A stretch of 64,000 nt of DNA from Pseudonocardiaceae bacterium (GTDB lineage Bacteria > Actinomycetota > Actinomycetes > Mycobacteriales > Pseudonocardiaceae). Position 1 is the first letter of the stretch. Every line of letters starts with the position of its first letter. This document shows positions 5,106 through 39,536 of this stretch, piece by piece. The position numbers were made by a program, and so were the translations under genes. The stretch is from positions 1 to 64,000 of the forward strand of contig WHSY01000004.1 of assembly GCA_009379815.1 (NCBI GenBank), given 5' to 3'. The notes under the pieces are model-generated. The model was given only the letters and a program-made list of their open reading frames with translations. It ran no database searches and had not been told where the DNA came from.

Positions 5106-5284
5106 TTGGATCAGGTCCTCCCGGTCTTCGACATGACCGGCGAATGCTACGCGCTGCAGAACGGTCATGAAGGAGCGATGCCGGAGCTGTTCGTGCGGAC
5201 CCGCCGATCGGTTCGACATACCGGGCGCGAGATGGCTCACCGGCCCCGCCCAGTTTGTCCGGGTGTAACCCCAGCTAATCCGGA

Positions 5285-5323
5285 GTGTGGATGAGGCCTG
5301 GTGATTGCAGGCCTCATCCACAC
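5285..5323. repeat. Perfect 16-bp inverted repeat in a divergent intergenic region
   Basis: GTGTGGATGAGGCCTG (5285-5300) pairs perfectly with CAGGCCTCATCCACAC (5308-5323) across a 7-base loop. It lies between the divergent starts at 5105 and 5382, 59 bases before the secreted-protein gene, so it is not positioned as the terminator of either flanking gene. It could be a 5'-leader structure of the downstream gene, an operator, or a relic terminator. Confidence 0.9.
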
Positions 5324-5381
5324 CGGCCCTGACGGGCCCGCCATCACGCAATCGACAGACAACAGAAGGGATGAGCTTCTG

Positions 5382-5729
5382 ATGCGCACGACGTATCGCA
5401 TGCTGACCGCCGGAGCGCTGAGCCTGCCGCTGGCCCTGGGCATCTCCGGAACCGCAATGGCCGGCACCGAGGCGCAAAGCCAGGTCTCCGAGGATCCCGC
5501 GGCAGTGAGTGTCCAGTTCCAGAACCATGACGACAGCACCCACGAGCAGCGTAACGCCGGCGGCGAGGCCCGCGCGAGCGAGGACGAGGGCTTGAGCCTC
5601 GACCTGAACTCGGACGGCCTGCTCGGCTTCGGCGACAACGAGGGCCGTGACCACGATGGCCAGGACGACGGCATCGTGAGTGGCATCCTCGGCAGCGACG
5701 AGGGTGACGACAACAACGGCATCCTCTGA
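5382..5729 (+). CDS. Small secreted acidic protein
   Basis: A 115-residue protein with a clear Sec signal peptide (MRTTYRMLTAG, hydrophobic core LSLPLALGI, cleavage likely after AMA at residue 27). I use ATG 5382 because it gives this signal peptide; AGAAGGG lies about 12 bases upstream. The mature part is hydrophilic and strongly acidic, with many Asp, Glu, Gly and Asn and stretches such as SLDLNSDGLLGFGDNEGRDH and a C-terminal DEGDDNNGIL. No domain is recognised. The D-rich patches could bind Ca2+ but no EF-hand loop is clear. A strong terminator follows within 20 bases, so it is a single-gene unit. Confidence 0.7.
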   Translation: MRTTYRMLTAGALSLPLALGISGTAMAGTEAQSQVSEDPAAVSVQFQNHDDSTHEQRNAGGEARASEDEGLSLDLNSDGLLGFGDNEGRDHDGQDDGIVSGILGSDEGDDNNGIL

Positions 5730-24163: not shown

Positions 24164-25999
24164 ATGTCGCGTAGGCAGCAGCTTCCCGAGGGCTTGGCGG
24201 AGATGGCGCCCGGCCCGCAGCTGGCAGCGGTGCTGGCGGGGATCGACCGGTCGCGGCTGTCCGGGTTCGACGGTGTGGAGGTGCTCAAGGCGCGGTATCG
24301 GCAGGTCAGCCACGAGCAGGCAGAGTTGATGGCCACGATGGTCGAGGTCGGGTTGTGCGACATCGGCCCCGACGATGAGCTGCCGCGCCGAGCGGTGCCG
24401 GATGAGTTCTCCGCCGACGAGATCCGGGCGGCGCTGGTGTTGACGCGCCGGTCTGCCGAGGTGCAGTTCGCGCTGGCCTACGACTTGTTGACCCGGTTGC
24501 CGGCGGTGCACGCGGCGCTGCAGGCAGGGCTGGTTGATGTGCCGCGGGCGCGAATCCTGTCCGAGTGGACCATGCAGCTCAGCGGTGAGCAGGCGCGGGC
24601 GCTGTGCGACGCCGTGCTGCAGCGCGTGGGTGAGTGGACCACGGGGCAGTTGATCGAGCAGGTCAAGAAGGCCGCGATCGCGATCGATCCGGAATGGGCG
24701 CAGCGGCGCTACGAGCAGGCCGTGGCCGACCGTAAGGTCGTCGGTTACCGCAACGAGGACGGGTCGGCGAACCTATCGGGACTCAATATGCCGGTCGACC
24801 GGGTGGCGGCGGCCAGCGCGCGTATTCACGCGCTGGCCATGGCCGCCAAGCGCGCCGGGCACCCGGATCCGATCGATCACATCCGGGCGGACTTGTTCCT
24901 GGGTATGACCGACGGCAGCTACGCAGGCTGCGATGATGCCGCCCTTCTCGAGCGGCTGCTCGCCGCACCGTCCGGTAGCGGCGAGCCCGACACGAACACA
25001 GCTGACCCCGCCACCGACCCCGCCACCGACCCCGAGCCTGCGCCCGGTGGTGACACCGCCTGCGGTGACGAGTCCGGCGGTGGGCGCGGCGGAGAGCCCG
25101 AGCACGCTGCGCCCGGCGGCGGCGCTGCGCGGGCGAGCACACGCGGTGGCGTGCCCGTCGGCAATGAGCTGCGGGTGCGGCTGTCGACGCTGCTGGGTCG
25201 CGACGAGTACCCGGCCGAGTTGGCCGGGTGGGGGCCGGTGCCCGCGGCGTTGGGCCGGGATGTGGCCGCGGCGCTGGCCGGTGGGCAGTGGCGGTTCGCG
25301 GTCACTGACGCCGACGGGCAGCTCGTGTGCGCGGGCCTGACCCGGGCGCGTCCGACTGGCGGCCGGGGCCACCCCGCAGCGGGGAGGTGCGGGGGCATCG
25401 TGGAGCTGCAGATCCCTGCGACGGTCCTGGTGGCCCTAGCCTCCGAGGACCCGGCCGGGCTGGGTGGCTGGGCGCGTGTGGTCGCCGACCTGGCCCGCCA
25501 GTACGCCGCGCACCGGGACGGCGGCGATGGCGATCGGTTCGGCGGCGATGCCGCCCGCCGCACCCCCGGGGCCGCGCTGCTCCGGCAGCTGCAGATCCGC
25601 GACCGCACCTGCACTTTTCGCGGATGTCGGGTCCCTGCGGTGGAGACCGACACCGATCACACCGTCCAGCACGCCCATGGTGGAGCCACCATCGAGATCA
25701 ACCTCGGTGCCGGATGTCGACATGATCATCGGCTCAAGGACGAGGGTGGGTGGCGTCTCGATCAGCCTCAACCGGGGCATTTCCGCTGGACCAGCCGTCT
25801 CGGACACACCTATTGGGTTCGCCCGCCGCCGATCATCGACCCGCTGCCCGACCCCCTCGTCCGCGACCGGGCCCCACCCCCGGTGTGGCCACCCGACGAC
25901 GACCCCGACGACGGCATCTTCCACGTACCCGACCCCGAGCCACCGCCCGAACCACCGCCCGAACCACCGCCACCCGACGACGAGCCCCCGCCCTTCTGA
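24164..25999 (+). CDS. HNH endonuclease-domain protein of the DUF222/13E12 family (copy 2)
   Basis: A 611-residue protein from ATG 24164. The DUF222 domain (SRRQQLPEGLAEMAPGPQLA through DDAALLERLL) is closely similar to copy 1 over about 265 residues, then a variable Pro/Asp/Glu/Gly linker (about 270-330) differs in length and sequence. The HNH part reads RDRTCTFRGCRVPA, ETDTDHTVQHAHGGAT and GAGCRHDHRLKDEGGWRL. The tail is a low-complexity Pro/Glu/Asp run ending DDEPPPF. Role unknown; proteins of this family may be nucleases linked to mobile or defence functions, but that is unproven. Its inverted orientation relative to copy 1, 15 kb away, makes the pair a potential substrate for inversion. 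Confidence 0.88.
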   Translation: MSRRQQLPEGLAEMAPGPQLAAVLAGIDRSRLSGFDGVEVLKARYRQVSHEQAELMATMVEVGLCDIGPDDELPRRAVPDEFSADEIRAALVLTRRSAEVQFALAYDLLTRLPAVHAALQAGLVDVPRARILSEWTMQLSGEQARALCDAVLQRVGEWTTGQLIEQVKKAAIAIDPEWAQRRYEQAVADRKVVGYRNEDGSANLSGLNMPVDRVAAASARIHALAMAAKRAGHPDPIDHIRADLFLGMTDGSYAGCDDAALLERLLAAPSGSGEPDTNTADPATDPATDPEPAPGGDTACGDESGGGRGGEPEHAAPGGGAARASTRGGVPVGNELRVRLSTLLGRDEYPAELAGWGPVPAALGRDVAAALAGGQWRFAVTDADGQLVCAGLTRARPTGGRGHPAAGRCGGIVELQIPATVLVALASEDPAGLGGWARVVADLARQYAAHRDGGDGDRFGGDAARRTPGAALLRQLQIRDRTCTFRGCRVPAVETDTDHTVQHAHGGATIEINLGAGCRHDHRLKDEGGWRLDQPQPGHFRWTSRLGHTYWVRPPPIIDPLPDPLVRDRAPPPVWPPDDDPDDGIFHVPDPEPPPEPPPEPPPPDDEPPPF

Positions 26000-26058
26000 G
26001 ACACCAACACCAGGCGGGGGCGACCGACACCGGCCGCCCCCGCCTACCGGCACGCCCG

Positions 26059-26109
26059 TTGCGAGTTCGTCGAGGTTGCGAGTTCGTCGAGGGTGCGAGG
26101 TCGTCGAGG
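26059..26109. repeat. Three tandem 17-bp repeats between convergent genes
   Basis: TTGCGAGTTCGTCGAGG occurs at 26059-26075 and 26076-26092, and a variant GTGCGAGGTCGTCGAGG at 26093-26109. The array lies 60 bases after the HNH stop and just before the end of the convergent PGPGW gene. Confidence 0.9.
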
Positions 26110-29160: not shown

Positions 29161-29170
29161 CCACGCACTA
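29161..29170. other. attL core of the integrated element
   Basis: CCACGCACTA, identical to 39527-39536. It covers the codons for the H-loop Thr-His-Tyr of the ABC ATPase. Upstream sequence is host gene; downstream sequence (TCCGTTACACGG...) is element. The functional att site may include flanking arm sites that cannot be defined here. Confidence 0.85.
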
Positions 29171-29237
29171 TCCGTTACACGGTCTCCTGGCCCAACATGC
29201 TGTGACCAGGGGAAACGTGCCTTACGCGGCTATACGC

Positions 29238-29243
29238 TACACT
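29238..29243 (+). promoter_or_regulatory. Probable -10 element of a leaderless integrase transcript
   Basis: TACACT (fits TANNNT) ends eight bases before the GTG start of the integrase, the spacing seen for leaderless mRNAs in actinobacteria. No ribosome binding site precedes the GTG, which supports the reading. No clear -35 is visible. Confidence 0.45.
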
Positions 29244-29251
29244 AGCATGCC

Positions 29252-30154
29252 GTGCCTCGTCTAGATAACGCTGAACTGCGGTCCCTGCTCGACTCGTGGC
29301 TGCTGCGGCTCAAGGCCGAACGCAAGGCCACCAAGACCATCGCCTGCTACCGGGAAGGCGTCGAGCAGTACCTCACCTACTGCGCCCGGGTCGGCGCCGA
29401 CCCCGACCTGCACCCGAACACGGTGGCCGCGTTCACCTCCTCGGTGCTCGACGCCGGCAACTCCCCGTCCACCGCTCGACTGCGGCAACTGGCGGTTCGG
29501 CTGTTCTCCGCGTGGCTGGCTGCCGAGGACGAGATCGCCCGGGACGAGCTGCTCGGTGTGAAACCCCCGAAGCTCGACCAGCAGCTTGTGGTCGGGCTCG
29601 ACGACGACGAGGTCACCGCGCTGCTCAAGGCGTGCTCCGGGAAGAGCCTGGGTGATCGCCGCGACGCGGCTATCGTGCGGCTGTGCCTCGAAACCGGGGT
29701 GCGCATCGGTGAGGTGGTGGCGATGACCACCGCCGATGTGGACCTGGCGCGCGGGCTGGCCACCGTCCGCCGCGGCAAGGGCGGCAAGGCCCGCACTGTC
29801 GCGTTCGGACCGGCGACCGGTTCGGCCATCGACCGCTACATACGCGCCCGGCGCCGCCACGTCCTCGCTGACAGGCCCGCGCTGTGGCTGGGGGAGAAGG
29901 GCTACGGCTACTCGTATGAGGCCGCCTACCGGTCGCTGGGGCGCCGCGCTGCGGCTGCGGGCATCGCCGGGTTCCACCCGCACCGGCTGCGGCACGCGTT
30001 CGCCTCGAGATGGTTGGCGGCCGGGGGCAGCGAGCAGGGGCTGATGGTCACCGCCGGGTGGACACGGCGGGAGATGCTGGACCGCTACTCGCGGGACACG
30101 TCGGCGAAGCGGGCTCACGAGGAGGCACGCCGACTCAACCTCGGTGACCTCTGA
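29252..30154 (+). CDS. int: Tyrosine recombinase/integrase of the element
   Basis: A 300-residue XerC/D-like integrase from GTG 29252. Residues 5-95 form the SAM-like core-binding domain (ELRSLLDSWLLRLKAERKAT). The catalytic domain shows Arg151 (ETGVRIGEVVAMT), a Lys-rich beta-hairpin (VRRGKGGKARTV), His244-x-x-Arg247 (FHPHRLRHAFASRW), Trp270 at the position of the second His (TAGWTRREM) and nucleophile Tyr279 (LDRYSRD). It lacks the N-terminal arm-binding domain of lambda-type integrases, so it may be a simple, possibly bidirectional recombinase. It lies 80 bases inside attL and most likely catalyses integration into the ABC H-loop sequence. No separate excisionase gene was recognised. Confidence 0.95.
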   Translation: MPRLDNAELRSLLDSWLLRLKAERKATKTIACYREGVEQYLTYCARVGADPDLHPNTVAAFTSSVLDAGNSPSTARLRQLAVRLFSAWLAAEDEIARDELLGVKPPKLDQQLVVGLDDDEVTALLKACSGKSLGDRRDAAIVRLCLETGVRIGEVVAMTTADVDLARGLATVRRGKGGKARTVAFGPATGSAIDRYIRARRRHVLADRPALWLGEKGYGYSYEAAYRSLGRRAAAAGIAGFHPHRLRHAFASRWLAAGGSEQGLMVTAGWTRREMLDRYSRDTSAKRAHEEARRLNLGDL

Positions 30155-30356
30155 CCCGTCGGTCGTCGTGGACCCAGCGCGACGCTCAGGCAGGGTGAAA
30201 GTACTTGCATCCTGCTCTCGCCCGAGAACCTGGCCGACGTACTGACGCGATACGCCGGCTACCTTGCCGATCGTCGACCTGTAGCCGTCGGTCGTCGTGG
30301 ACCCGTCGGCGCACCATGCTATCGTGTTCACCGTTACAGAACGTGAGTAGCAGCTA
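30155..30356. promoter_or_regulatory. Regulatory region with 20-bp direct repeats and probable promoter
   Basis: CCGTCGGTCGTCGTGGACCC occurs at 30155-30174 and again at 30285-30304. The second copy overlaps a possible -35 (TGGACC, 30298-30303) placed 16 bases before TATCGT (30320-30325, TANNNT-like -10), which would drive the structured leader and the early genes. The repeats are candidate operators for a repressor or excisionase. On the minus strand one frame across this region reads IGKVAGVSRQYVGQVLGRE, HTH-like, but it has no stop or clear start and the flanking repeat is in the same frame, so I do not call a gene. Confidence 0.5.
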
Positions 30357-30534
30357 GGGACGGGACCCCGTACCCAAAGCCGAACGGCGTGGCCACGAAG
30401 CCACACCAACCGGGTACGTGCACTGTGGGGTTGGAGGACGTCCCGAACGGCGAAACACAGCCGGGCAGATCGGCTTCCGGTGAGGAATACCGCCGAGCAG
30501 CGACAACCGGCAGATCCGGTGTCGCCGCTCGGCG
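30357..30534 (+). ncRNA. Structured RNA leader upstream of the early genes
   Basis: Three successive folded domains are visible. Domain 1 is nested: GGGACG (30357-30362) with CGTCCC (30439-30444); ACCCC (30365-30369) with GGGGT (30427-30431); GTACCC (30370-30375) with GGGTAC (30412-30417); and inside, GTGGC (30389-30393) with GCCAC (30400-30404). Domain 2: AGCCG (30459-30463) with CGGCT (30471-30475), loop GGCAGAT. Domain 3: CGCCGAGC with GCTCGGCG (30491-30498/30527-30534), GCGAC with GTCGC, ACCGG with CCGGT, loop CAGAT. The string GGCAGATC occurs at both loop 2 and loop 3. All helices listed are perfect. It ends 25 bases before the first small gene and follows a probable promoter, so it is a cis leader or a separate small RNA. 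Confidence 0.6.
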
Positions 30535-30558
30535 TTCGTGTTCCCTGGAGCCGGAACC

Positions 30559-30819
30559 ATGGCACTGTCCCCCGAGCAGCGTTCGCAGCGCGCCCGCATC
30601 GCAGCCCTAGCCCGCTGGGCACACGAGGACCCCACCGCCAACGCCGCACGCGCCCAGGCCGGTCTGCGCCGCAAGTTCGAGAACGAGGTCGACCCCGACC
30701 GGGTGCTGCCCGAGGCGGAACGAGCCCGCCGCACCGAGTGCGCTTGGCGCGCCCATCTGGCACGGGCGGCGTTCGCCAGCGCGAAGGCCCGCCGAGCCAG
30801 GTCGGGGGCTGACGAATGA
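30559..30819 (+). CDS. Small Arg/Ala-rich element protein
   Basis: An 86-residue protein from ATG 30559 with CTGGAGCCGGA upstream. It is helical and strongly charged: LSPEQRSQRARIAALARWAH, then ANAARAQAGLRRKFENEVDP and LPEAERARRTECAWRAHLAR. The spacing and composition match small hypothetical proteins found next to integrase or replication genes in many actinobacterial prophages and integrative elements. DNA binding is plausible from the basic helices but no HTH is definable. It is the first gene of the overlapping early gene chain; its stop overlaps the next start (ATGA at 30816). Confidence 0.7.
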   Translation: MALSPEQRSQRARIAALARWAHEDPTANAARAQAGLRRKFENEVDPDRVLPEAERARRTECAWRAHLARAAFASAKARRARSGADE

Positions 30820-31100
30820 AACCCCGCCGCGGGCAGTGCGACGGGGTTCCAGAAAGCAGCCCATGCGAGGGGGACAGCCCCGATCCTACCGCGCCCGGGC
30901 GACAGCTGCGACGGCGTCGTGACACGTCCCGACGGCTCGAGCCGGTGGCCGGGCTGCAGCCGGACCCGTGGCGCCACCCGCAGCCGGACCGGTGGTCAGC
31001 CCGCGAGGTCGCCTCCTGGCGGCTGGCCTGGGTGCACCTCGCCGAGCTCGGGCTCGAGCCGATCGTTCCCGACAGCCTCTACACGAGGTCGGCGGCATGA
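30816..31100 (+). CDS. Small element protein of unknown function
   Basis: Up to 94 residues from ATG 30816, which overlaps the previous stop. The first 45 residues are basic and Pro-rich without family character; the C-terminal half (DPWRHPQPDRWSAREVASWR, then LAWVHLAELGLEPIVPDSLY) has the pattern of short hypothetical proteins in actinobacterial prophages. A GTG at 30944 would encode only that half and is a reasonable alternative start. AACCCCG (30819-30825) and CGGGGTT (30841-30847) form a 7-bp hairpin inside the 5' part, which favours the shorter start. The stop overlaps the next gene (ATGA at 31097). Confidence 0.5.
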   Translation: MKPRRGQCDGVPESSPCEGDSPDPTAPGRQLRRRRDTSRRLEPVAGLQPDPWRHPQPDRWSAREVASWRLAWVHLAELGLEPIVPDSLYTRSAA

Positions 31101-31981
31101 CCGAACCGGCTTACGAGGGAGGCCACGTAAAACGGCAGCGGGCGACCAAGGCCGAGATGCAGCACCGGTACGACGCGCTGTACGAGATCGTCAGGGAGAA
31201 CAAGCCCACCGGCATCAGGTTCTGCTACTACCGGGCCACCACCAGGGGTGTCGTGGCCAAGACCGACTCCGGGTACAACATGGTGCAGCGCGCCATCCTC
31301 GACATGCGCCGGTCCGGTCGCATCCCCTGGCACTGGGTCGTGGACTCAAGCCGCTGGATGCGGAAACCGGACACGTGGGGGTCGGTCGAGGAGCTGCTCG
31401 CCGACGCCGGCGCCTCCTACCGCCGGGCCTTGTGGCGCGACTCAGAGTCGGTCGTCGAGGTGTGGTGCGAGTCGGAGTCTGTGGCCGGGGTGCTGTACCC
31501 GACCACAGCGAAGTGGGACGTGCCGCTGCACCCGCTGAAGGGCCAGACGTCGGACTCGTTCGCGTGGGGCGCGGCGGTGCAGTACCGCGACGACCCCCGC
31601 CCGTTGACGATCTTCTACCTGGGTGACCACGACCCGGCCGGGTACGAGATCGAGACCAACCTGCACGCGAAGCTGGTCGAGTTCTCGGGCCGCGTCGACA
31701 TCGAGTTCCTGCGGCTCGCCGTCGACTTCGGCGATGTGCAGCAGCTCGGGCTCACCGGCACCACGCCGAAGAAGCCCAGCTACCGAGACAAGGTGACCGG
31801 CGGGTTGGTGCCGTGGCATGGGCCGGCCGTCGAGGTCGAGGCGGTCGACCCGCCGATGCTGCGGCGCTGGCTCGACGCCTGCATAAGCGACAAGGTCGAC
31901 CACGAGGCGCTGCGGCTGCTGCGGGTGGCCGAGGAGTCTGAGCGGGAGATCCTGCTTCGCATGGCTGGGGAGGCGTCGTGA
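31097..31981 (+). CDS. TOPRIM-like (topoisomerase VI A/Spo11-like) element protein
   Basis: A 294-residue protein from ATG 31097. The central FYLGDHDPAGYEIETNL is a TOPRIM-type D-x-D site (Asp-His-Asp) followed by the helix seen in topoisomerase VI A/Spo11-like proteins. The N-terminal part (RFCYYRATTRGVVAKTDSGY, MVQRAILDMRRSGRIPWHWV) looks like a winged-helix DNA-binding region with Tyr residues that could be nucleophiles. The C-terminal part has DYR..-type Lys/Arg segments and a helical end. Such proteins occur in actinobacterial prophages and elements without a tested function; roles in replication, DNA topology or anti-defence are possible. Translationally coupled on both sides. Confidence 0.6.
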   Translation: MTEPAYEGGHVKRQRATKAEMQHRYDALYEIVRENKPTGIRFCYYRATTRGVVAKTDSGYNMVQRAILDMRRSGRIPWHWVVDSSRWMRKPDTWGSVEELLADAGASYRRALWRDSESVVEVWCESESVAGVLYPTTAKWDVPLHPLKGQTSDSFAWGAAVQYRDDPRPLTIFYLGDHDPAGYEIETNLHAKLVEFSGRVDIEFLRLAVDFGDVQQLGLTGTTPKKPSYRDKVTGGLVPWHGPAVEVEAVDPPMLRRWLDACISDKVDHEALRLLRVAEESEREILLRMAGEAS

Positions 31982-32217
31982 AGCGCGACGGCGGGCCGAC
32001 CTTGTTCATCACGGTCGACCCGGAGCGTGGCCTCGCCTTGGTCCGCGGCAAGTCCGGCAAGCGCACCGTGCACCTCCTGGTGGCCGAGGAGGACATCACC
32101 TATAGCACCTCTCAGCGTGGCTGGGTGGTGCCCGCGTCCGCCGTGCCGGACATCGAAACCTTCGCGTCCTACTACGCGGAGGAACTGTGCGTGACGACGA
32201 AGCGGAAGCTGCCATGA
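31978..32217 (+). CDS. Small element protein
   Basis: A 79-residue protein starting at GTG 31978, overlapping the stop of the TOPRIM-like gene. It begins KRDGGPTLFITVDPERGLAL, then VRGKSGKRTVHLLVAEEDIT, WVVPASAVPDIETFASYY and a basic end TTKRKLP. It is probably a small beta-rich domain. No family is recognised. Its stop overlaps the next start (ATGA at 32214), so it is part of the early/replication unit. Confidence 0.6.
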   Translation: MKRDGGPTLFITVDPERGLALVRGKSGKRTVHLLVAEEDITYSTSQRGWVVPASAVPDIETFASYYAEELCVTTKRKLP

Positions 32218-32858
32218 CCTGGACCAAGCTAGGCGACGAGTTCCCCGACGACTGCGAGCGCGCCGAGCTGTCAGACGCGGCCGTCCGCACCCACGTCGAG
32301 GCGCTGTGCTGGTCCAACCGGCTCCTCCTCGACGGGCACATCCCGATGCGCCACCTCGGCCGGTTCGCGTTCAGCCAAGACGCCGACCGCGCCGTCAGTG
32401 AACTACTGGCCGCCGGCTGGTGGGGCGAGACGGAGGACGGCTACCTGCTGATGCACGACATCACCGAGCAGCGCAGCCGCGAGCAGGTGCTGGCATCGAG
32501 AGAGACAGCGAAGGGGAGGCAGGCCCGATGGAGAGGCAAGCACCGCGTGGAACCGGATAACGCCGTTACTAACGCCGTTACGAGACGGGGACGTAACGCC
32601 GTTACCCGGGACGGGACGGGACAGGACAGGTCTGGGTCTAAACCCAGCCAGGAAGAGAAGGAAGTACACGTGCGCGAGGACGCGATCACCGAGGCCGAAC
32701 CACCGACGGAGGAGACGTTGTCACCACCTCGTCCAGATGCATGTTCGGGCTGCGGGAAGGTCGGCTCCTCCCTCACGGCCGGGGGTCTGTGCCGCCGCTG
32801 CCACGGCGAGGCGGTGTCCCGCTCCTACAACCTCGACAACGGCAGGAGCTCGGCGTGA
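32214..32858 (+). CDS. Replication-initiator-like protein with internal iterons
   Basis: A 214-residue protein from ATG 32214. The N-terminal domain (TWTKLGDEFPDDCERAELSD, AAVRTHVEALCWSNRLLLDG, IPMRHLGRFAFSQDADRAVS, LLAAGWWGETEDGYLLMHD) is the winged-helix pattern of phage replication proteins of the lambda-O/DnaT-like kind common in actinophages. The linker contains ITEQRSREQVLASRETAKGR and then a repeated NAVT peptide (NAVTNAVTRRGRNAVTR) encoded by DNA iterons (32558-32605). The C-terminus is a zinc ribbon, CSGCGKVGSSLTAGGLCRRC. I infer that it binds its own gene as the element's replication origin, as lambda O does. It lies within the translationally coupled chain. Confidence 0.7.
   Translation: MTWTKLGDEFPDDCERAELSDAAVRTHVEALCWSNRLLLDGHIPMRHLGRFAFSQDADRAVSELLAAGWWGETEDGYLLMHDITEQRSREQVLASRETAKGRQARWRGKHRVEPDNAVTNAVTRRGRNAVTRDGTGQDRSGSKPSQEEKEVHVREDAITEAEPPTEETLSPPRPDACSGCGKVGSSLTAGGLCRRCHGEAVSRSYNLDNGRSSA
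32558..32605. repeat. Three iterons inside the replication gene
   Basis: TAACGCCGTTAC occurs at 32558-32569, directly repeated at 32570-32581, and again at 32594-32605. With its flanking base the third copy is the dyad GTAACGCCGTTAC. The array encodes the repeated NAVT peptide. Tandem dyad repeats inside an initiator gene are the arrangement of a lambda-type origin. Confidence 0.75.
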
Positions 32859-33445
32859 GACCGCACCTCACCCCGTGCGCGGGCTGCGGGCAGCTGGTGC
32901 CCACGTGCACCCTCGACGGCCAACGCCGGTGCACCACCTGCGCACGCAGGCCGCGGACGATGGAGTTGGGATACGTATCCCTTTTACCGGATGAGGCAAG
33001 ATTGCCGATATCGGTAAAGTCCTTCGTTAGATCCGCGACTGTCTGCTGCGGTACCCCTTCCAACTGTCAACGACTTGACAGTCCAGCCGGAGCGGATCAC
33101 TGGCCCGTGCACGCCATCCACAGGCACACCCACCCTGTGGACAACACCTGTGCACAACCCCTGTGGACAACCGAGGGAGACACGTGGACACCGAGCAGCG
33201 CATCGACGCCTGGACCTTCACCCCACCCGGACCAGGCCGAGCCGACGAACGCGTGTGGTCGCGATGCGCCGTCAACGGCTGCGCCTGGAGAGTCCCCGCA
33301 CACCCCGACGGCGTCGCGCTGCTGTGCCGCGGACACCGCGAAGATGCCTACGACACGAGGCCGAGCTACCGCAAGGTCGACGAGGTCACCCACCTCAAGC
33401 TCCGCAAACTGCCCGGTACGCGACGCGGTGACGGTGCGGCGGTGA
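32855..33445 (+). CDS. Zinc-ribbon element protein (C-terminal extent uncertain)
   Basis: GTG 32855 overlaps the stop of the replication gene. The first ~40 residues, RPHLTPCAGCGQLVPTCTL then DGQRRCTTCARRPR, form a treble-clef or zinc-ribbon with two CxxC pairs and are convincing. Formally the frame stays open to 33445 (196 residues), but from about 32960 it runs through a lower-GC region full of dyads and DnaA-box-like repeats and then overlaps the next gene by 260 bases, so much of the C-terminal part may be non-coding run-through. A mutated or missed stop is possible. Confidence 0.4.
   Translation: MRPHLTPCAGCGQLVPTCTLDGQRRCTTCARRPRTMELGYVSLLPDEARLPISVKSFVRSATVCCGTPSNCQRLDSPAGADHWPVHAIHRHTHPVDNTCAQPLWTTEGDTWTPSSASTPGPSPHPDQAEPTNACGRDAPSTAAPGESPHTPTASRCCAADTAKMPTTRGRATARSTRSPTSSSANCPVRDAVTVRR
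32968..33082. promoter_or_regulatory. Cluster of operator-like dyads
   Basis: Three separate dyads lie within 115 bases of relatively AT-rich sequence: the perfect palindrome GGGATACGTATCCC (32968-32981); TTGCCGATATCGGTAA (33002-33017), 14 of 16 bases symmetric; and ACTGTCAA-CGAC-TTGACAGT (33063-33082), perfect 8-bp arms. TTTACCG (32983-32989) and CGGTAAA (33012-33018) pair as well. This density suggests repressor or initiator binding and a promoter for the rightward genes. Confidence 0.6.
33114..33170. promoter_or_regulatory. DnaA-box-like cluster, candidate replication origin
   Basis: TGTGGACAA, the complement of the actinobacterial DnaA box TTGTCCACA, is present at 33136-33144 and 33162-33170; TGTGCACAA (33149-33157) differs by one base, and CCATCCACA (33114-33122) matches TTATCCACA at seven of nine on the other strand. 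Spacing is regular (13 bases between successive boxes). It lies next to the dyad cluster and 530 bases from the iterons. Confidence 0.6.
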
Positions 33446-33453
33446 CGGAGTGA
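33184..33453 (+). CDS. Small Cys/His element protein
   Basis: An 89-residue protein from GTG 33184, with GAGGGAGACAC directly upstream. It reads DTEQRIDAWTFTPPGPGRAD, then ERVWSRCAVNGCAWRVPAHP and GVALLCRGHREDAY. The CxxxxC...CxxH arrangement suggests a small zinc-binding fold. No function is known. It begins right after the DnaA-box cluster, so it is the first gene of the rightward unit behind the putative origin. The T-rich GTTTTTTATT at about 33482-33491 after its stop may be part of a terminator, though no strong stem precedes it. Confidence 0.6.
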   Translation: MDTEQRIDAWTFTPPGPGRADERVWSRCAVNGCAWRVPAHPDGVALLCRGHREDAYDTRPSYRKVDEVTHLKLRKLPGTRRGDGAAVTE

Positions 33454-33582
33454 CGGTGCGATGCGGTCCGATGACACAACGGGTTTTTTATTCAGCAGCC
33501 TCGGACGACCGCGCAATCCCCCGTTTCTCTCCCTACGTTGAATTGCGGCGGTTTCCCCTTCTCTCTGTGACAGGTGGTAGCG

Positions 33583-34011
33583 ATGAGTGACCTAGGCCTT
33601 GCGCGGGCGCTGAGTCGGCTGCAGGCCGACGAGCTGCCGTCGGTGCAGGGCGAGGAGCGGGCGGCACTGCTGAGCGCTCTCAGCAACGGTTGGGCGGACC
33701 TGGCGGCTGTGAACGATGCGGTTGCCGAGTTAGCGGGCACGGTCCGGATGATCGGCCGCTGTCCCTTCCCTGCCGGCCGTGCTGTGACGGCCGCGCTCGA
33801 GGCGTGTTCGCCGTCGGACCGGCGGGTAGTGATGCTGTCAACGGCCGAGGTGCGGGACCGCATGGTGGGTGTGGGTGAACACCGGCTCGCGGCGGCGTGG
33901 GCCGAGCTCGCAGCGTTGGCCGGCGAGGTGATAGCGGCGGAGGGGGAGCTGCTGCGGGCGCTCGAGGACGACGGCGCGTCGGGCCCGGGTTTTGTCGGGA
34001 CGGACCGGTAG
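33583..34011 (+). CDS. Helical element protein of unknown function
   Basis: A 142-residue protein from ATG 33583 behind AGGTGG. It is mostly alpha-helical and Ala/Leu/Glu-rich: SDLGLARALSRLQADELPSV, GEERAALLSALSNGWADLAA, AEVRDRMVGVGEHRLAAAWA, ELAALAGEVIAAEGELLRAL. No motif of terminase small subunits, proteases or portal proteins is present. Its place just before the capsid gene would fit an assembly or scaffold helper, but this is only position-based. A 180-base gap with a hairpin (34088-34109) separates it from the capsid gene. Confidence 0.6.
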   Translation: MSDLGLARALSRLQADELPSVQGEERAALLSALSNGWADLAAVNDAVAELAGTVRMIGRCPFPAGRAVTAALEACSPSDRRVVMLSTAEVRDRMVGVGEHRLAAAWAELAALAGEVIAAEGELLRALEDDGASGPGFVGTDR

Positions 34012-34087
34012 GATGATCGGTGCGACGGTGGAGCGCAGGTCGACAACCACGCTGCCCGTTGACGGGTGAGTTGAACGCGTAGGGACC

Positions 34088-34109
34088 GCTGACGAAGATC
34101 GTCGTCAGC
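34088..34109. terminator. Hairpin between small gene and capsid gene
   Basis: GCTGACGA (34088-34095) pairs perfectly with TCGTCAGC (34102-34109) around a six-base loop, in the gap before the capsid gene. It may be a terminator or a leader element of the capsid transcript; no T-tract follows. Confidence 0.4.
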
Positions 34110-34191
34110 CGCAGGCACCGTAGCTGTCGGTGCGGGAAACCCCGGGCTCCCTCTAAGACCCCCATTGTGCTGATCTTGGAGTGGAGTAGAC

Positions 34192-35487
34192 GTGAACCCG
34201 GATTTCGCTGATCTTGCGTCGAGGCTGCGCGCGGAGCGTGAGGTGTTGTCGCAGGCCATCGACCACATGAGGACGCCGGAGGGCGCGCCGCGCCCCGACC
34301 TGTCGACGCAGCAGCGTGCACTGTGGGAAGCATCAGTCATGCGCCGCACGGTCGTCGATGAGCGACTTGCGGACCTTCCGGAGCATGTTGCTGCTGCGGG
34401 CGGGGTGGAGCAGCGCAAGGACGATGTGGACGAGCGGCTCGGCGAGCTCGACGCCGCCGATCGGCGGCAGGCCTCCGCGGAGGAGGCGTTCCGGCAGCTG
34501 CACGCCACGCCGCGGGTGGCTGGTCGCGGCTCCCGTGGTCGGGACGAGGGGTTCGCGGCGTTCGCGCGCGGTGAGGAAGGGCACCGGGCCACGTTCAACG
34601 TGGACCTGTCCGAGGCCGCGGAGGCGCGTTCCCTGACCGTGGGCACCGGCAGCGAGGGTGGAGACACCGCCCCGGCTTCGTTCGTGGCCAGGTTGTACGA
34701 GCACATGATCGAGACTTCGGGGGTGCGGCAGGCCGGGCCGACGGTGTTGACCACCTCCGGTGGTGAGGACTTGGCGGTGCCGAAAACCACCGGGCATGGG
34801 ACGGCGGCGATCGTTTCCGAAGGGGCGACGATCGGCGAGGACGACCCGGAGTTCGACACGGTGACCCTGGGCAGCTTCAAGTACGGCAGCCTGATCAAGG
34901 TCACGAACGAGCTTTTGACGGACACGTCGGTGGATCTTGTGGGGTATCTGGCCCGCTCGTTCGGGCGTGCGGTCGGGAACCTCAGTGGCGAGCACTTCGT
35001 GTCCGGGTCGGGCTCCGGGGAACCTGAGGGGCTGCTGGGTGCGTCCACGTTGGGTGTGACCGCGGCGGCGACGGACACTGTCACCGCCGACGAGGTGATC
35101 GACATGTTCTTCACGGTTATCCCCGAGTACCGGGGTCGGGGGACGTGGCTGATGACCGACAGCATGTGGGCGAAGATCCGCAAGTTGAAGGACGCGGACG
35201 ACAACTACCTGGTGGGTCCGATCGCCGACGGTGGTGTGTTGCGGCTGTTGGGCCGGCCGGTGGTGATCGACCCGTATGTGGATGAGCCCGCGGCGGACGC
35301 TAAAACGATCCTGTTCGGCGACTTCTCGGCGTACTACATCCGGCAGGTGTCCGGGTTGCGGTTCGAACGGTCCGACGATGTCGGGTTCGACACGGACACC
35401 GTGTGGTTCCGGGTGTTGCACCGGCTCGACGGCCGTCTGGTGGACGGCTCCGGGGCGATCAAGCACCTCGCGCAGGCCGCTGCCTGA
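34192..35487 (+). CDS. HK97-family phage major capsid protein
   Basis: A 431-residue protein from GTG 34192 (TTGGAGTGGAG upstream). Residues 1-100 are charged and coiled-coil (LRAEREVLSQAIDHM, RKDDVDERLGELDAADRRQA), equivalent to the HK97 delta/scaffold domain. The capsid core starts near FAAFARGEEG; ETSGVRQAGPTVLTTSGGED, EGATIGEDDPEFDTVTLGSF, KYGSLIKVTNELLTDTSVDL, GRAVGNLSGEHFVSGSGSGE and GRGTWLMTDSMWAKIRKLKD are the family's conserved blocks. No separate protease gene accompanies it. A 267-base gap with no recognisable gene follows before the tape-measure gene; the head-tail connector and tail-tube genes normally found there are absent. Confidence 0.95.
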   Translation: MNPDFADLASRLRAEREVLSQAIDHMRTPEGAPRPDLSTQQRALWEASVMRRTVVDERLADLPEHVAAAGGVEQRKDDVDERLGELDAADRRQASAEEAFRQLHATPRVAGRGSRGRDEGFAAFARGEEGHRATFNVDLSEAAEARSLTVGTGSEGGDTAPASFVARLYEHMIETSGVRQAGPTVLTTSGGEDLAVPKTTGHGTAAIVSEGATIGEDDPEFDTVTLGSFKYGSLIKVTNELLTDTSVDLVGYLARSFGRAVGNLSGEHFVSGSGSGEPEGLLGASTLGVTAAATDTVTADEVIDMFFTVIPEYRGRGTWLMTDSMWAKIRKLKDADDNYLVGPIADGGVLRLLGRPVVIDPYVDEPAADAKTILFGDFSAYYIRQVSGLRFERSDDVGFDTDTVWFRVLHRLDGRLVDGSGAIKHLAQAAA

Positions 35488-35754
35488 CAGTGATGGTCGT
35501 GGGGCGTCAACCTCACCCGCCGGGGGCTTTGGTTCCTTTCACCCCGGATCGGAAGGAAGGCCGGCACTCAAGGGTCCCGCCGGGCCCGCCGGCCTGCGCC
35601 CCGCCGAACGTGGTGTGCGGGCCGGGACCTATCCAAGCGGTCGCTTCGGGCCCCGGTCTGCGCACCTCGAGCGGGCACCCCGGCCGGGGGCGGTTGGTCC
35701 TTCCCGCCGGTCGGGGCTGCCTGCACCCCTTCGTGACTAGCTGAGAGGGCGAGC

Positions 35755-38700
35755 ATGGCCAAGACGTTGAGGGTCAACTTCATTGGCGACACCTCGGACC
35801 TTGAGAAGTCGGTCGACCAGGGCACCGCGAAGATCCGCTCGTTCGGGCAGAAGGTCGTCAAGATCGCTGCCGCCGCGGGTGCCGCCGCCGGTGTGGCTGT
35901 GGGCGCCGCCCTGACGAACGCGATCAACGTGGAGGGCGCCAACGCGAAACTCGCCGGTCAGCTCGGTTTGGTCGGGAGGGACGCGAAGCGCGCCGGGGCT
36001 GTCGCCGGACGGGTGTACTCCCAGGGCTGGGGGGAGAATCTGGGCGCGGTGCACGACGCGGTCCGCGGGCTCGTGCAGAACGCCAACGTCTCAGTCAAGG
36101 CGGTCAACCTCGAGCCGTTGGTCAGGAACGTGACGGTGCTGACCGACACGTTCGGGGTGTCGGCGGGGGAGATCACCACCGCCATCGGCGGGGTGGGTCG
36201 CGCGTTCGGCACCAAGCCGCAGAAGGCGCTGGACTCGGTCACTAAGCTGCTGCAGACCGGTGGGGACCGGGCCACGGACCTGGGCGACACGCTCACCGAG
36301 TACCCGCAGCGCATCAAAACACTCGGTCTGTCCGGGCAGCAGTTCTTCGGGCTGATCAACCAAGGTTTGGCGGCCGGTGGCCGCAACACCGACGTGTTCG
36401 GCGACAGCTTGGCGGAGCTCAACATCCGCATCTCGTCCGGTGAGGCAGCCAAGGGCATGCAGATGTTGGGGATCAACGCGTCGCAGGCCACCGCCGCTAT
36501 CTCGGCGGGGGGGCCGGGGGCGCAGGCCGCCCTGGACCAGATTTTCGACAAGCTGCGGGCGATTCAGGACCCCACCCGCCGCGCTCGGGTCGCCACCGAG
36601 CTGTTCGGCAGCGTGTGGGAGAACGCCGGGGAGGCGTTGTTCGCGTTGGACCCGTCGGAGGCGGTCGCGTCCCTCGGGAACGTGGAGGGCGCCTCCAACA
36701 GGCTCACCGAGTCGCAGAAGAACGCGGCGCAGCAGATCGAGGCGTTCAAGCGGTCGGCGATCAGTTTGGCGACGCAGGCGATCGGCGGGTTCCTGCTGCC
36801 GAAGGTCACCGAGCTGGCGGGATTCTTGAACCGCAACCTGAAGCCCACCATCGACGCGGTGGTGCGGGCGTTCCGGGAGAACCGGACGGCGGTTGAGGCA
36901 ACAGTGTCGGTGCTCGGGGGGATGCTGACCGCGCTGCTGGCCATGAAGGTCATCGGTTCGGTGATCGCCGGTGTGAAGGGGCTACGGCTCGCTGTCATCG
37001 CGTTGAACGCGGCCATGCGGGCGAACGTGATCGGCATTGTGATCACCGCGCTGGCGGGGCTGGTCGGCGGGCTCATCTACGCCTACAAGAACTCCGAGAC
37101 ATTCCGCAACATCGTGAACGCGGTGTTCCGGGCGGTCGCCGCGGTGGCCACATGGTTGTGGAACAACGTGCTCAAGCCGGTGTTCAACTTCATCGGGGGG
37201 GTGTTCCGCGCCAACGCGGACCGGATCGGGTGGGCGTGGCGCAACGTCATCAAACCGGCGTGGGATGCGCTGGTGGCCGTCCTACAGTTCTTGTGGAACA
37301 ACGTGCTTCGCCCGATCTTCCAGCGCATCGGGGACCGGTGGAACGCGATGGGGGTCGGGATCCGGGCGGTGTGGCGCAACGTGATCCGACCCGCCTGGGA
37401 CGCGCTGGTGGGCGGTTTGCGGTGGGTGCGCGACCGGTTCCGGGAGATCGTGGACTGGGTGGGCCGTAAGTGGGACCAGCTGCGCGGGCTGCTCGCCCGG
37501 CCGATCAACGCGGTGATCCGCACCGTGTTCAACAACGGGATTCTGCGGGCCTGGAACTGGGCCGCGGGGCTGCTGCCCGGGGTCGACAAGGCCAACAAGG
37601 TCCCGGAGTTCCGGTGGGCTCGTGGCGGTATCCACGAGCAGCATCAGGCGCAGATCACCAAGGCTGGGGGTCCGCTGCGGATCTGGAGTGAGCCGGAAAC
37701 CGCCGGTGAGGCCTACATTCCGCTAGCGGCGAGCAAGCGGCAGCGGTCCACGGGGATCCTGGCGGAGGTCGCCGACCGGTTCGGGCTCGATGTGCTGCCC
37801 CGCCACCTGGCCACGTTCGCGTTCGGTGGTGTCGTCGACCGGGCCCTGGCGCTGGCCGCCCGCCCATCCGGTGCGCGGGTGTCCTCGGCGTACCGGCCCG
37901 GCGACAGCGGCTATCACGGGCGGGGGAAGGCCGTCGACCTGGTCGGGAACCTGCCCGGCATCAACCGCTATCTCGCGAAGGGCTGGCCCAACTCGACGCA
38001 GCTGATCTACACCCCGGGCACGAACCTGCTCAACGGGCGGCCGCACCGCTACAACGCGGCCACCCGAGCCGACCACTTCGACCATGTGCATTGGGCGCAG
38101 GAGAACCTCGCGATGGTCGGGAACCCGGCGCTTCGTGCGATCGGCGGCGGGCTCCGTGGCGCGTTCAACTTCGTCCGCGACCAGATCCGCGGCGCGTTCG
38201 AGCGCATCACCAACCCGCTGATAGACGGGCTGCCGAAGGCGCCGCCCGCGTTCAAGGACATGGGCCGCGGTGTGGCCACCAAGTCCCGCGACTCGCTGCT
38301 GAACTGGATGCTGGGGGAGGCCGACAAGGTCGACGGGGCATCGGATCCGGGCGGGGCCGGGGTGCAGCGCTGGCGGCCGCTGGTGCAGCAGATGCTGCGC
38401 CTCGTGGGTCAGCCGCTGGGGCACACCGGGATCACGCTGCGGCGCATGAACCAGGAGTCCGGCGGGAACCCGCGGGCGATCAACAACTGGGATGTGAACG
38501 CCCGCCGGGGCACCCCGTCTAAGGGGCTGATGCAGGTCATCGACCCGACGTTCCGGGCGTTCCGGCACCCTAGGTTGCCTAACAATGTGTGGCACCCGGG
38601 GGCGAATGTGGCGGCGTCCATGCGCTACGCCCTGTCCCGCTACGGCAGCCTGCCGTCCGCGTACAACCGGCCGGGCGGGTACGCCGACGGTGGGATTGTC

Positions 38701-38910
38701 ACCGGCCCGACGATGGCGACGCTCGGTGAGGACGGCGCCGAGGCGATCGTTCCGCTGGGCAAGCCGCGCCGCGCCCGTGAAGTGATGGACCAGGCCGGGC
38801 TCGGCGGCGTCACGAAGCTCTACCAGGTGAACATCAACGCCACCTCGGTCGACGGGGAGGACGTGCGCAACGCGATCCGGCGCATGGAAATGCTCGACGG
38901 CGCCTACTGA
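35755..38910 (+). CDS. Phage tail tape-measure protein with peptidoglycan-hydrolase modules
   Basis: A 1051-residue protein from ATG 35755 behind GAGAGGGCGAGC. The N-terminus (KTLRVNFIGDTSDLEKSVDQ and an Ala-rich span) and the GxF-x-TxPQKALDSVT-like region are typical of TP901-type tape measures. Hydrophobic segments near 380-450 may be membrane-inserting. Trp-rich repeats (LWNNVLKPVFNFIGGVF, AWRNVIKPAWDAL and similar) span about 460-570. Around 705-780 a D,D-peptidase-like module has SSAYRPGDSGYHGRGKAVDL and DHFDHVHWAQ. Around 880-975 an SLT lytic-transglycosylase module has RRMNQESGGNPRAINNWDVN and SKGLMQVIDPTF. At about 1.5 angstrom per residue it would specify a tail near 150 nm, yet no other tail gene is present. 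Confidence 0.92.
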   Translation: MAKTLRVNFIGDTSDLEKSVDQGTAKIRSFGQKVVKIAAAAGAAAGVAVGAALTNAINVEGANAKLAGQLGLVGRDAKRAGAVAGRVYSQGWGENLGAVHDAVRGLVQNANVSVKAVNLEPLVRNVTVLTDTFGVSAGEITTAIGGVGRAFGTKPQKALDSVTKLLQTGGDRATDLGDTLTEYPQRIKTLGLSGQQFFGLINQGLAAGGRNTDVFGDSLAELNIRISSGEAAKGMQMLGINASQATAAISAGGPGAQAALDQIFDKLRAIQDPTRRARVATELFGSVWENAGEALFALDPSEAVASLGNVEGASNRLTESQKNAAQQIEAFKRSAISLATQAIGGFLLPKVTELAGFLNRNLKPTIDAVVRAFRENRTAVEATVSVLGGMLTALLAMKVIGSVIAGVKGLRLAVIALNAAMRANVIGIVITALAGLVGGLIYAYKNSETFRNIVNAVFRAVAAVATWLWNNVLKPVFNFIGGVFRANADRIGWAWRNVIKPAWDALVAVLQFLWNNVLRPIFQRIGDRWNAMGVGIRAVWRNVIRPAWDALVGGLRWVRDRFREIVDWVGRKWDQLRGLLARPINAVIRTVFNNGILRAWNWAAGLLPGVDKANKVPEFRWARGGIHEQHQAQITKAGGPLRIWSEPETAGEAYIPLAASKRQRSTGILAEVADRFGLDVLPRHLATFAFGGVVDRALALAARPSGARVSSAYRPGDSGYHGRGKAVDLVGNLPGINRYLAKGWPNSTQLIYTPGTNLLNGRPHRYNAATRADHFDHVHWAQENLAMVGNPALRAIGGGLRGAFNFVRDQIRGAFERITNPLIDGLPKAPPAFKDMGRGVATKSRDSLLNWMLGEADKVDGASDPGGAGVQRWRPLVQQMLRLVGQPLGHTGITLRRMNQESGGNPRAINNWDVNARRGTPSKGLMQVIDPTFRAFRHPRLPNNVWHPGANVAASMRYALSRYGSLPSAYNRPGGYADGGIVTGPTMATLGEDGAEAIVPLGKPRRAREVMDQAGLGGVTKLYQVNINATSVDGEDVRNAIRRMEMLDGAY

Positions 38911-39137
38911 GCCGCAGTCTGCGCGGCCGTCGACAGGCAGTCCGCCAACTCCGTGGCCTCGTGGCCGGTCAGCTCCGCAGCGGTGTCGGTGGCGCCGTGG
39001 TGCAGCAGCAGAACCCTCCGGTTCGTGCCGATCACCAGCAGGGTGCAGTACCCGCCGCCGCCGAACAACTTCGCGGTGATGCCGCTGCGGTAGCGCTCGC
39101 GCTCACCCTCGGGCAGCGACCCGGTCACCGGGACCAT
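38904..39137 (-). CDS. Small protein at the element's right end
   Basis: A 77-residue protein if started at ATG 39137 (VPVTGSLPEGERERYRSGIT); a GTG at 39188 would add 17 residues. The body ITAKLFGGGGYCTLLVIGTN then RRVLLLHHGATDTAAELTGH and a helical C-terminus looks like a small alpha/beta fold. It overlaps the upstream minus-strand gene by 13 bases and its end overlaps the tape-measure stop. Genes opposite to the structural genes at the end of a prophage are often expressed in the lysogen (moron-like); no function can be assigned. Confidence 0.5.
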   Translation of the reverse strand: MVPVTGSLPEGERERYRSGITAKLFGGGGYCTLLVIGTNRRVLLLHHGATDTAAELTGHEATELADCLSTAAQTAAQ

Positions 39138-39379
39138 TCCCGCAGGTGAATCGGTGGCGGTCCCGGGACCCCCACCGAAGGCGACCACTGTGCGGCGGCA
39201 CCGGCGGGCAGCACCGCACCCGCTGAGTCGCCTCCTGACAGCCGCAGCAGGCGTTCCAGGTCTGCTGCCACCTGCCGCCGCTGCGGTGCCGTGAGCCTCG
39301 AGCTGACGACTAGCAGGACGTGGTCGCCGACGCGGACACCGACACCGTCCTCGACCATGGTGTCTGACACGCTGTGCAT
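39125..39379 (-). CDS. Small protein, first gene of the right-end minus-strand pair
   Basis: An 84-residue protein from ATG 39379; GACGAGG lies about nine bases upstream. It reads HSVSDTMVEDGVGVRVGDHV, LLVVSSRLTAPQRRQVAADL and ERLLRLSGGDSAG, then a Pro-rich C-terminus. No family recognised. It is followed by an overlapping second small gene, so the two form a unit read towards the tape-measure gene. Position just inside attR suggests lysogenic expression, perhaps superinfection immunity or a host-interaction role (inference only). Confidence 0.5.
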   Translation of the reverse strand: MHSVSDTMVEDGVGVRVGDHVLLVVSSRLTAPQRRQVAADLERLLRLSGGDSAGAVLPAGAAAQWSPSVGVPGPPPIHLREWSR

Positions 39380-39526
39380 GGGCGGGACCTCGTCTCCCGT
39401 CAAGGCCCCGGGTCGGTGGTGTATACCGGCCTTGGGGCCGCCTACTGGTAGGGGATAGTGCACGACCGACGGTGTGTCACCACCTGCACAAACCACACTC
39501 GCGCATGCCGTGGTGAGCGGTTCTAG

Positions 39527-39536
39527 CCACGCACTA
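39527..39536. other. attR core of the integrated element
   Basis: CCACGCACTA, identical to attL. To its right the ABC ATPase frame resumes (CTGGAGGAGGCC, Leu-Glu-Glu-Ala). Just left, the element sequence contains CACCACCTGCAC and GCCGTGGTGAG, complementary blocks that may be recombinase arm or accessory sites. Confidence 0.85.

Follow-up and report, generated by a model that had tools for sequence, protein, structure and literature searches.

Our analyses suggest that the 178-nt segment at 30357-30534 of the window, the 64,000-nt stretch of DNA that was analyzed, belongs to a cis-acting 5′ leader whose 3′ hairpin would mask the Shine-Dalgarno sequence of the first early gene in a prophage-like element and so act as a brake on translation, a reading to which we assign a probability of roughly one half; the hairpin is possibly also an attenuator. 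In the mechanism proposed, the early operon of an element that carries an integrase would have the segment as its 5′ untranslated leader. The working part of this leader would be the hairpin at about 30476-30555, in which the lower stem is predicted to pair the Shine-Dalgarno sequence and the AUG just beyond to be more open. Translation of the 86-aa gene would thereby be kept low, including from transcripts that read through from the integrase gene, and the lower stem could be opened by the ribosome, a protein, temperature, or an alternative fold.

Genomic context of the leader

The segment lies in an integrated, prophage-like element (29161-39536) of 10,366 bp between two copies of CCACGCACTA, inside a gene for an ABC-transporter ATPase. 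The two copies of this 10-bp core, at 29161-29170 and 39527-39536, flank the element, and joining the flanks across it makes the ATPase reading frame uninterrupted again. From its gene content, the 10.4-kb element is a decayed prophage or satellite. Its first gene encodes a tyrosine integrase (29252-30154, plus strand; Pfam Phage_integrase, 3e-27) and is followed by the spacer with the candidate RNA, the 86-aa gene, a gene whose product matches phrog_6247 (annotated as topoisomerase), and a gene for a replication-initiation-like protein, with major capsid and tape-measure protein genes further along. Terminase, portal, and repressor proteins were not recognized among the proteins scanned from the whole element. 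A distant second copy of the phrog_6247-like protein, with 23% identity, is present in the same genome (G000:C466:12669-13313, L022).

Several sequence features are found between the integrase and the early gene. An exact 20-bp direct repeat, CCGTCGGTCGTCGTGGACCC, occurs on the plus strand at 30156-30175 and again at 30285-30304, where it overlaps the putative −35 element of the early promoter; the two copies are possible regulator sites. There is also a near-perfect palindrome, GCAGGGTGAAAGTACTTGCATCCTGC (30190-30215, 22 of 26 positions symmetric), which by its appearance looks like a repressor operator. The first-pass annotation had placed the segment between a probable promoter and the first early gene; the position is right and a plus-strand promoter, TGGACC-16 nt-TATCGT at 30298-30325, is plausible by eye, the order of a TANNNT element and then a structured leader being found also in relatives, but a strict sigma-70 scan does not report it. 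From this putative promoter we infer transcription with a start expected at about 30331. When a protein-coding origin of the segment was checked, its codon-position GC proved flat (0.67/0.71/0.66), unlike that of the flanking genes (0.72/0.53/0.88 in the integrase), and the segment is therefore non-coding.

The first early gene (30559-30819, plus strand) encodes a protein of 86 aa that belongs by homology to the phrog_2842 family. The protein itself has no match in Pfam, PHROGs, or NCBIfam, but its relatives match phrog_2842, a family of unknown function. Its AlphaFold model is a three-helix protein (pLDDT 93.9), with which structure and PDB searches returned no significant match. A second homologue of the gene is present in the same genome (G000:C388:22249-22533, L108).

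Folding of the leader

The minimum free energy fold of the leader contains 11 helices with 3 bp or more within 30357-30534, arranged in three domains, so that the helices listed in the first-pass annotation, which had claimed at least nine, do exist. At −88.9 kcal/mol, the 178-nt segment is more stable than all of 200 dinucleotide shuffles (z −4.3; −3.9 to −4.0 in repeat shuffle runs), and its z ranks in the top 3 among 355 tiled windows of the GC-rich 64-kb stretch. Its GC-corrected stability is in the top 2.7%; its raw stability is ordinary, being equaled by 288 of 1064 windows. The other two 178-nt windows with a z as low or lower are 5221-5398 and 25921-26098, the latter falling at the end of a coding region that is repetitive and rich in proline.

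The claim of more structure than expected for such a spacer is thus borne out for the segment as a whole, but the signal comes from one part of it: the excess structure is almost wholly in the 3′ hairpin and not in a multi-domain architecture. Domains 1-2 (30357-30475, plus strand), a short hairpin and a multibranched domain, are close to chance when taken alone, with a z of −2.2 that becomes −1.4 when the linker is included and is −1.4 for domain 2 by itself. The core of the 3′ hairpin (30490-30534, plus strand), 18 bp in three helices and then TTCGTGTT, has a z of −7.2, and the extended hairpin (30476-30555, plus strand), with the Shine-Dalgarno sequence in its lower stem, a z of −6.5 over 30466-30558, a value reached by 0 of 200 shuffles. 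The 8-mer GGCAGATC, previously described as a loop sequence shared by two domains, is indeed repeated, at 30464-30471 and 30509-30516, but some repeated 8-mer is present in 36% of shuffles, which places the repeat at chance level, and only the second copy is in a hairpin loop, the first lying in a junction and closing stem. For the minus strand, the fold is as good as that of the plus strand or better (z −4.9 to −5.3), so folding alone cannot tell which strand is RNA.

Predicted masking of the Shine-Dalgarno sequence

With the 5′ arm of the hairpin present, the Shine-Dalgarno GGAG of the downstream gene (30547-30550, plus strand) is predicted to be unpaired with a probability of only 0.11-0.17, rising to about 0.49 after removal of most of that arm, whereas the AUG at 30559 is predicted to be 64-76% unpaired in the full leader. 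The pairs responsible depend on the segment folded. In the minimum free energy fold of the leader alone, 30476-30481 pairs with 30550-30555 and 30484-30490 with 30538-30544; in the fold of 30466-30600, the pairs are 30471-30475/30549-30553 and 30477-30480/30545-30548, which cover the whole GGAG. These two lower stems are near-equivalent. A competing local hairpin at 30540-30557, in which 30540-30544 pairs with 30553-30557, would place the GGAG in its loop and is the alternative fold by which the site might be exposed. When only 60 nt of upstream context is considered, the ribosome site of the 86-aa gene is fairly open (0.58), and the simple stem-near-start score of the gene, 15, is unexceptional beside the family mean of 15.6.

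Leaders of homologous genes

Nucleotide and covariance-model searches of 386 genomes of the family, 50,697 phages, and 72,556 plasmids gave no homologue of the leader, and its own fold, for which the first-pass annotation had proposed a covariance analysis, is therefore without covariation support. In Rfam, nothing in the window exceeded the gathering threshold, a permissive scan returned only microRNA models at chance level, and nothing was found in ten related loci. Neither 83 loci nor the 386 genomes yielded a homologous leader to a single-sequence covariance model (R1): its matches in L117 and L119 are inside an acyl-CoA-synthetase-like gene, and that in L118 is a terminator-like hairpin. 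The candidate match L115 resembles coding DNA, and of the nucleotide matches of 22-45 nt in phages, plasmids, and family genomes, those inspected either resemble coding DNA or lie in it. An exact search of viral contigs for the domain-3 loop sequence gave none. Even the nearest downstream proteins, 61-69% identical (L028 and L029), have leaders of unrelated sequence, and none of the leaders of the 86-aa protein homologues resembles that of the window in sequence.

As for the gene itself, 77 of the 399 genomes analyzed from the order have a homologue, in most cases with an integrase close by. A phrog_2842 gene directly follows the integrase in 144 mycobacteriophage records, which we take to be cluster E. 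The HTH gene annotated next to the integrase of Kromp was considered and is unrelated to the 86-aa protein. Across the family, with start codons picked automatically, the 60 nt before phrog_2842-type starts have a mean z of −1.10 (n = 72) compared with −0.35 before other genes of the same loci (n = 83; p = 2.7e-4, kinship ignored). Stems ending at most 8 nt from the start are stronger than at other genes (p = 0.0035, kinship again ignored), and the Shine-Dalgarno accessibility of the homologues has a median of 0.20 compared with 0.32 (p = 0.013, likewise regardless of kinship). These family-level effects are modest, and many homologues are without a structured start. In nine homologues (L034, L060, L061, L067, L076, L081, L082, L091, and L098), a GGTGnCA...GCGCTGTGCTGG motif ends about 10 nt before the phrog_2842 start, and this motif suggests leaderless transcription in that set rather than a hairpin leader.

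Parallels come from five co-linear leaders of another family (L120, L121, L123, L126, and L129), whose genomes are probably Mycobacteriaceae, judging from the likeness of L059 to the Mycobacterium locus L025. These leaders, of 102-133 nt, start at a conserved CGCTGTGCTANNGT-like promoter and end in hairpin arrays in which ACCTC/GAGGT masks the Shine-Dalgarno sequence. Two upstream stems stay paired although both partners have changed in 5 of 7 pairs of one and in 4 of 5 of the other, and for each of them permutation of the arms, which were chosen by hand, reached as much pairing as the leaders show in 2 of 120 permutations; the masking stem is nearly invariant. Given the unedited five-leader alignment and no further guidance, RNAalifold predicted the final two hairpins, with both partners of 4 pairs altered in one sequence or more, and its total covariation term was slightly unfavorable (+0.6) because the plain alignment is one base out of register in two rows. 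In the pair of related leaders L025/L059, the stem next to the start also has two double-sided changes. That hairpin leaders of a comparable kind, with compensatory changes, occupy the same slot in related elements speaks for a regulatory leader. The regulatory RNA proposed from the window sequence survives as a structured, non-coding leader, but not as a three-domain RNA with a meaningful repeated loop.

Alternative readings

The main rival to masking is attenuation by the same hairpin. The hairpin 30490-30534 with TTCGTGTT would then be an intrinsic terminator or attenuator at which most transcripts from the integrase gene or the early promoter stop, so that the leader RNA is short and the operon weakly expressed in the absence of antitermination. 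This reading strikes us as somewhat unlikely. The stem is GC-rich and, as its z indicates, very stable, there are 5 T among the 8 bases after it, and L118 has a look-alike hairpin, with the stem CGCCGAGCAG/CTGCTCGGCG, in a gap between converging genes. Together with its tail, the core hairpin could be a weak terminator, and the equally good fold of the minus strand is compatible with a terminator too. However, the T-run is interrupted, a terminator scan does not report the hairpin, and the related leaders place theirs over the Shine-Dalgarno sequence, a few bases from the start and without T-runs. A bolder extension of the masking reading, which we hold to be speculative and rather improbable, is that the phrog_2842 protein together with its leader constitutes a fast-evolving and hitherto undescribed RNA switch that is carried next to integrases in prophages of actinobacteria, cluster E mycobacteriophages among them; the leader would stay shut until a phage signal, or the protein, opened it, and early replication would in this way be coupled to integration or excision.

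It is improbable that the segment acts at the level of DNA, whether as arm sites for the integrase, as an origin, or as an operator for a protein, the inverted repeats of which fold by accident. The equal folding of the minus strand, the direct repeats and palindrome just upstream, and the integration and replication genes on either side would fit such an element, but the attachment core is about 1.2 kb away, upstream of the integrase, there are no iterated sites in 30357-30534, and the five-leader group varies its stem sequence yet keeps the pairing, which is unexpected for a protein-binding site. Nor do we expect a chance structure of a GC-rich spacer to account for the data: the ordinary absolute stability of the segment and the ordinary domains 1-2 agree with it, but the 3′ hairpin exceeds every shuffle by 6-7 standard deviations and is predicted to pair the Shine-Dalgarno sequence. 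A discrete trans-acting or copy-number RNA, like the RNA-based origins that mycobacterial prophages do have (PMC7157519), is very improbable, for although about 200 nt separate the possible promoter from the possible terminator, such origins are those of phages without an integration cassette and adjoin parABS (PMC7157519), whereas the element here has an integrase and a replication-initiation-like gene, and domains 1-2 and the repeated 8-mer are at or near chance. A trans-acting RNA, a riboswitch, or a copy-number RNA is not supported, and the control of copy number or lysogeny suggested at first finds no evidence in an element that is integrated and encodes its own replication-initiation-like protein.

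Relation to known systems

The reading preferred here, a leader hairpin that would mask a ribosome site, has its closest precedent in the T4 genes e, soc, 49, and I-TevI, which have inhibitory hairpins at their translation initiation regions (PMC3014915). As in those genes, the Shine-Dalgarno sequence is predicted to be locked in a stable leader helix (hairpin z −6.5) directly before a phage start codon, and read-through transcripts would be silenced. T4 gene e has an internal late promoter whose transcripts lack the 5′ arm, whereas no promoter is evident inside the 5′ arm here; gene, host, and sequence also differ, and the present leader is known by prediction only. With intrinsic terminators and leader attenuators it shares a GC-rich stem and a T-rich tail, but its T-run is interrupted, its lower stem extends over the Shine-Dalgarno sequence, and no antiterminator was identified. 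The RNA origins of cluster A mycobacteriophages (PMC7157519) are likewise non-coding segments of actinobacterial temperate phages, but there the segment takes the place of integration and adjoins parABS, whereas the present element carries both integrase and replication-initiation-like genes, and ParA and ParB have no match among its proteins scanned.

Taken for this element by itself, the finding is a modest one. The data suggest that a ribosome-site-masking hairpin, a known kind of control, operates in a family in which it has not been described before, and if such hairpins recur before an uncharacterized gene beside actinobacterial prophage integrases, they would constitute a shared and testable control point. 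The leader of Bask21 and its relatives bears no nucleotide similarity to that of the window but shares the order of integrase and then phrog_2842, with a strong hairpin before the gene (z −3.8 over 110 nt). In Bask21, the 181 nt that separate the integrase gene from the phrog_2842 start (2340-2520 of L074) have an identity of 99% or more in 144 of 144 matching phage records, and these leaders are thus too identical to yield covariation. It is in the cluster E mycobacteriophages that a ready laboratory system for leaders of this kind is at hand.
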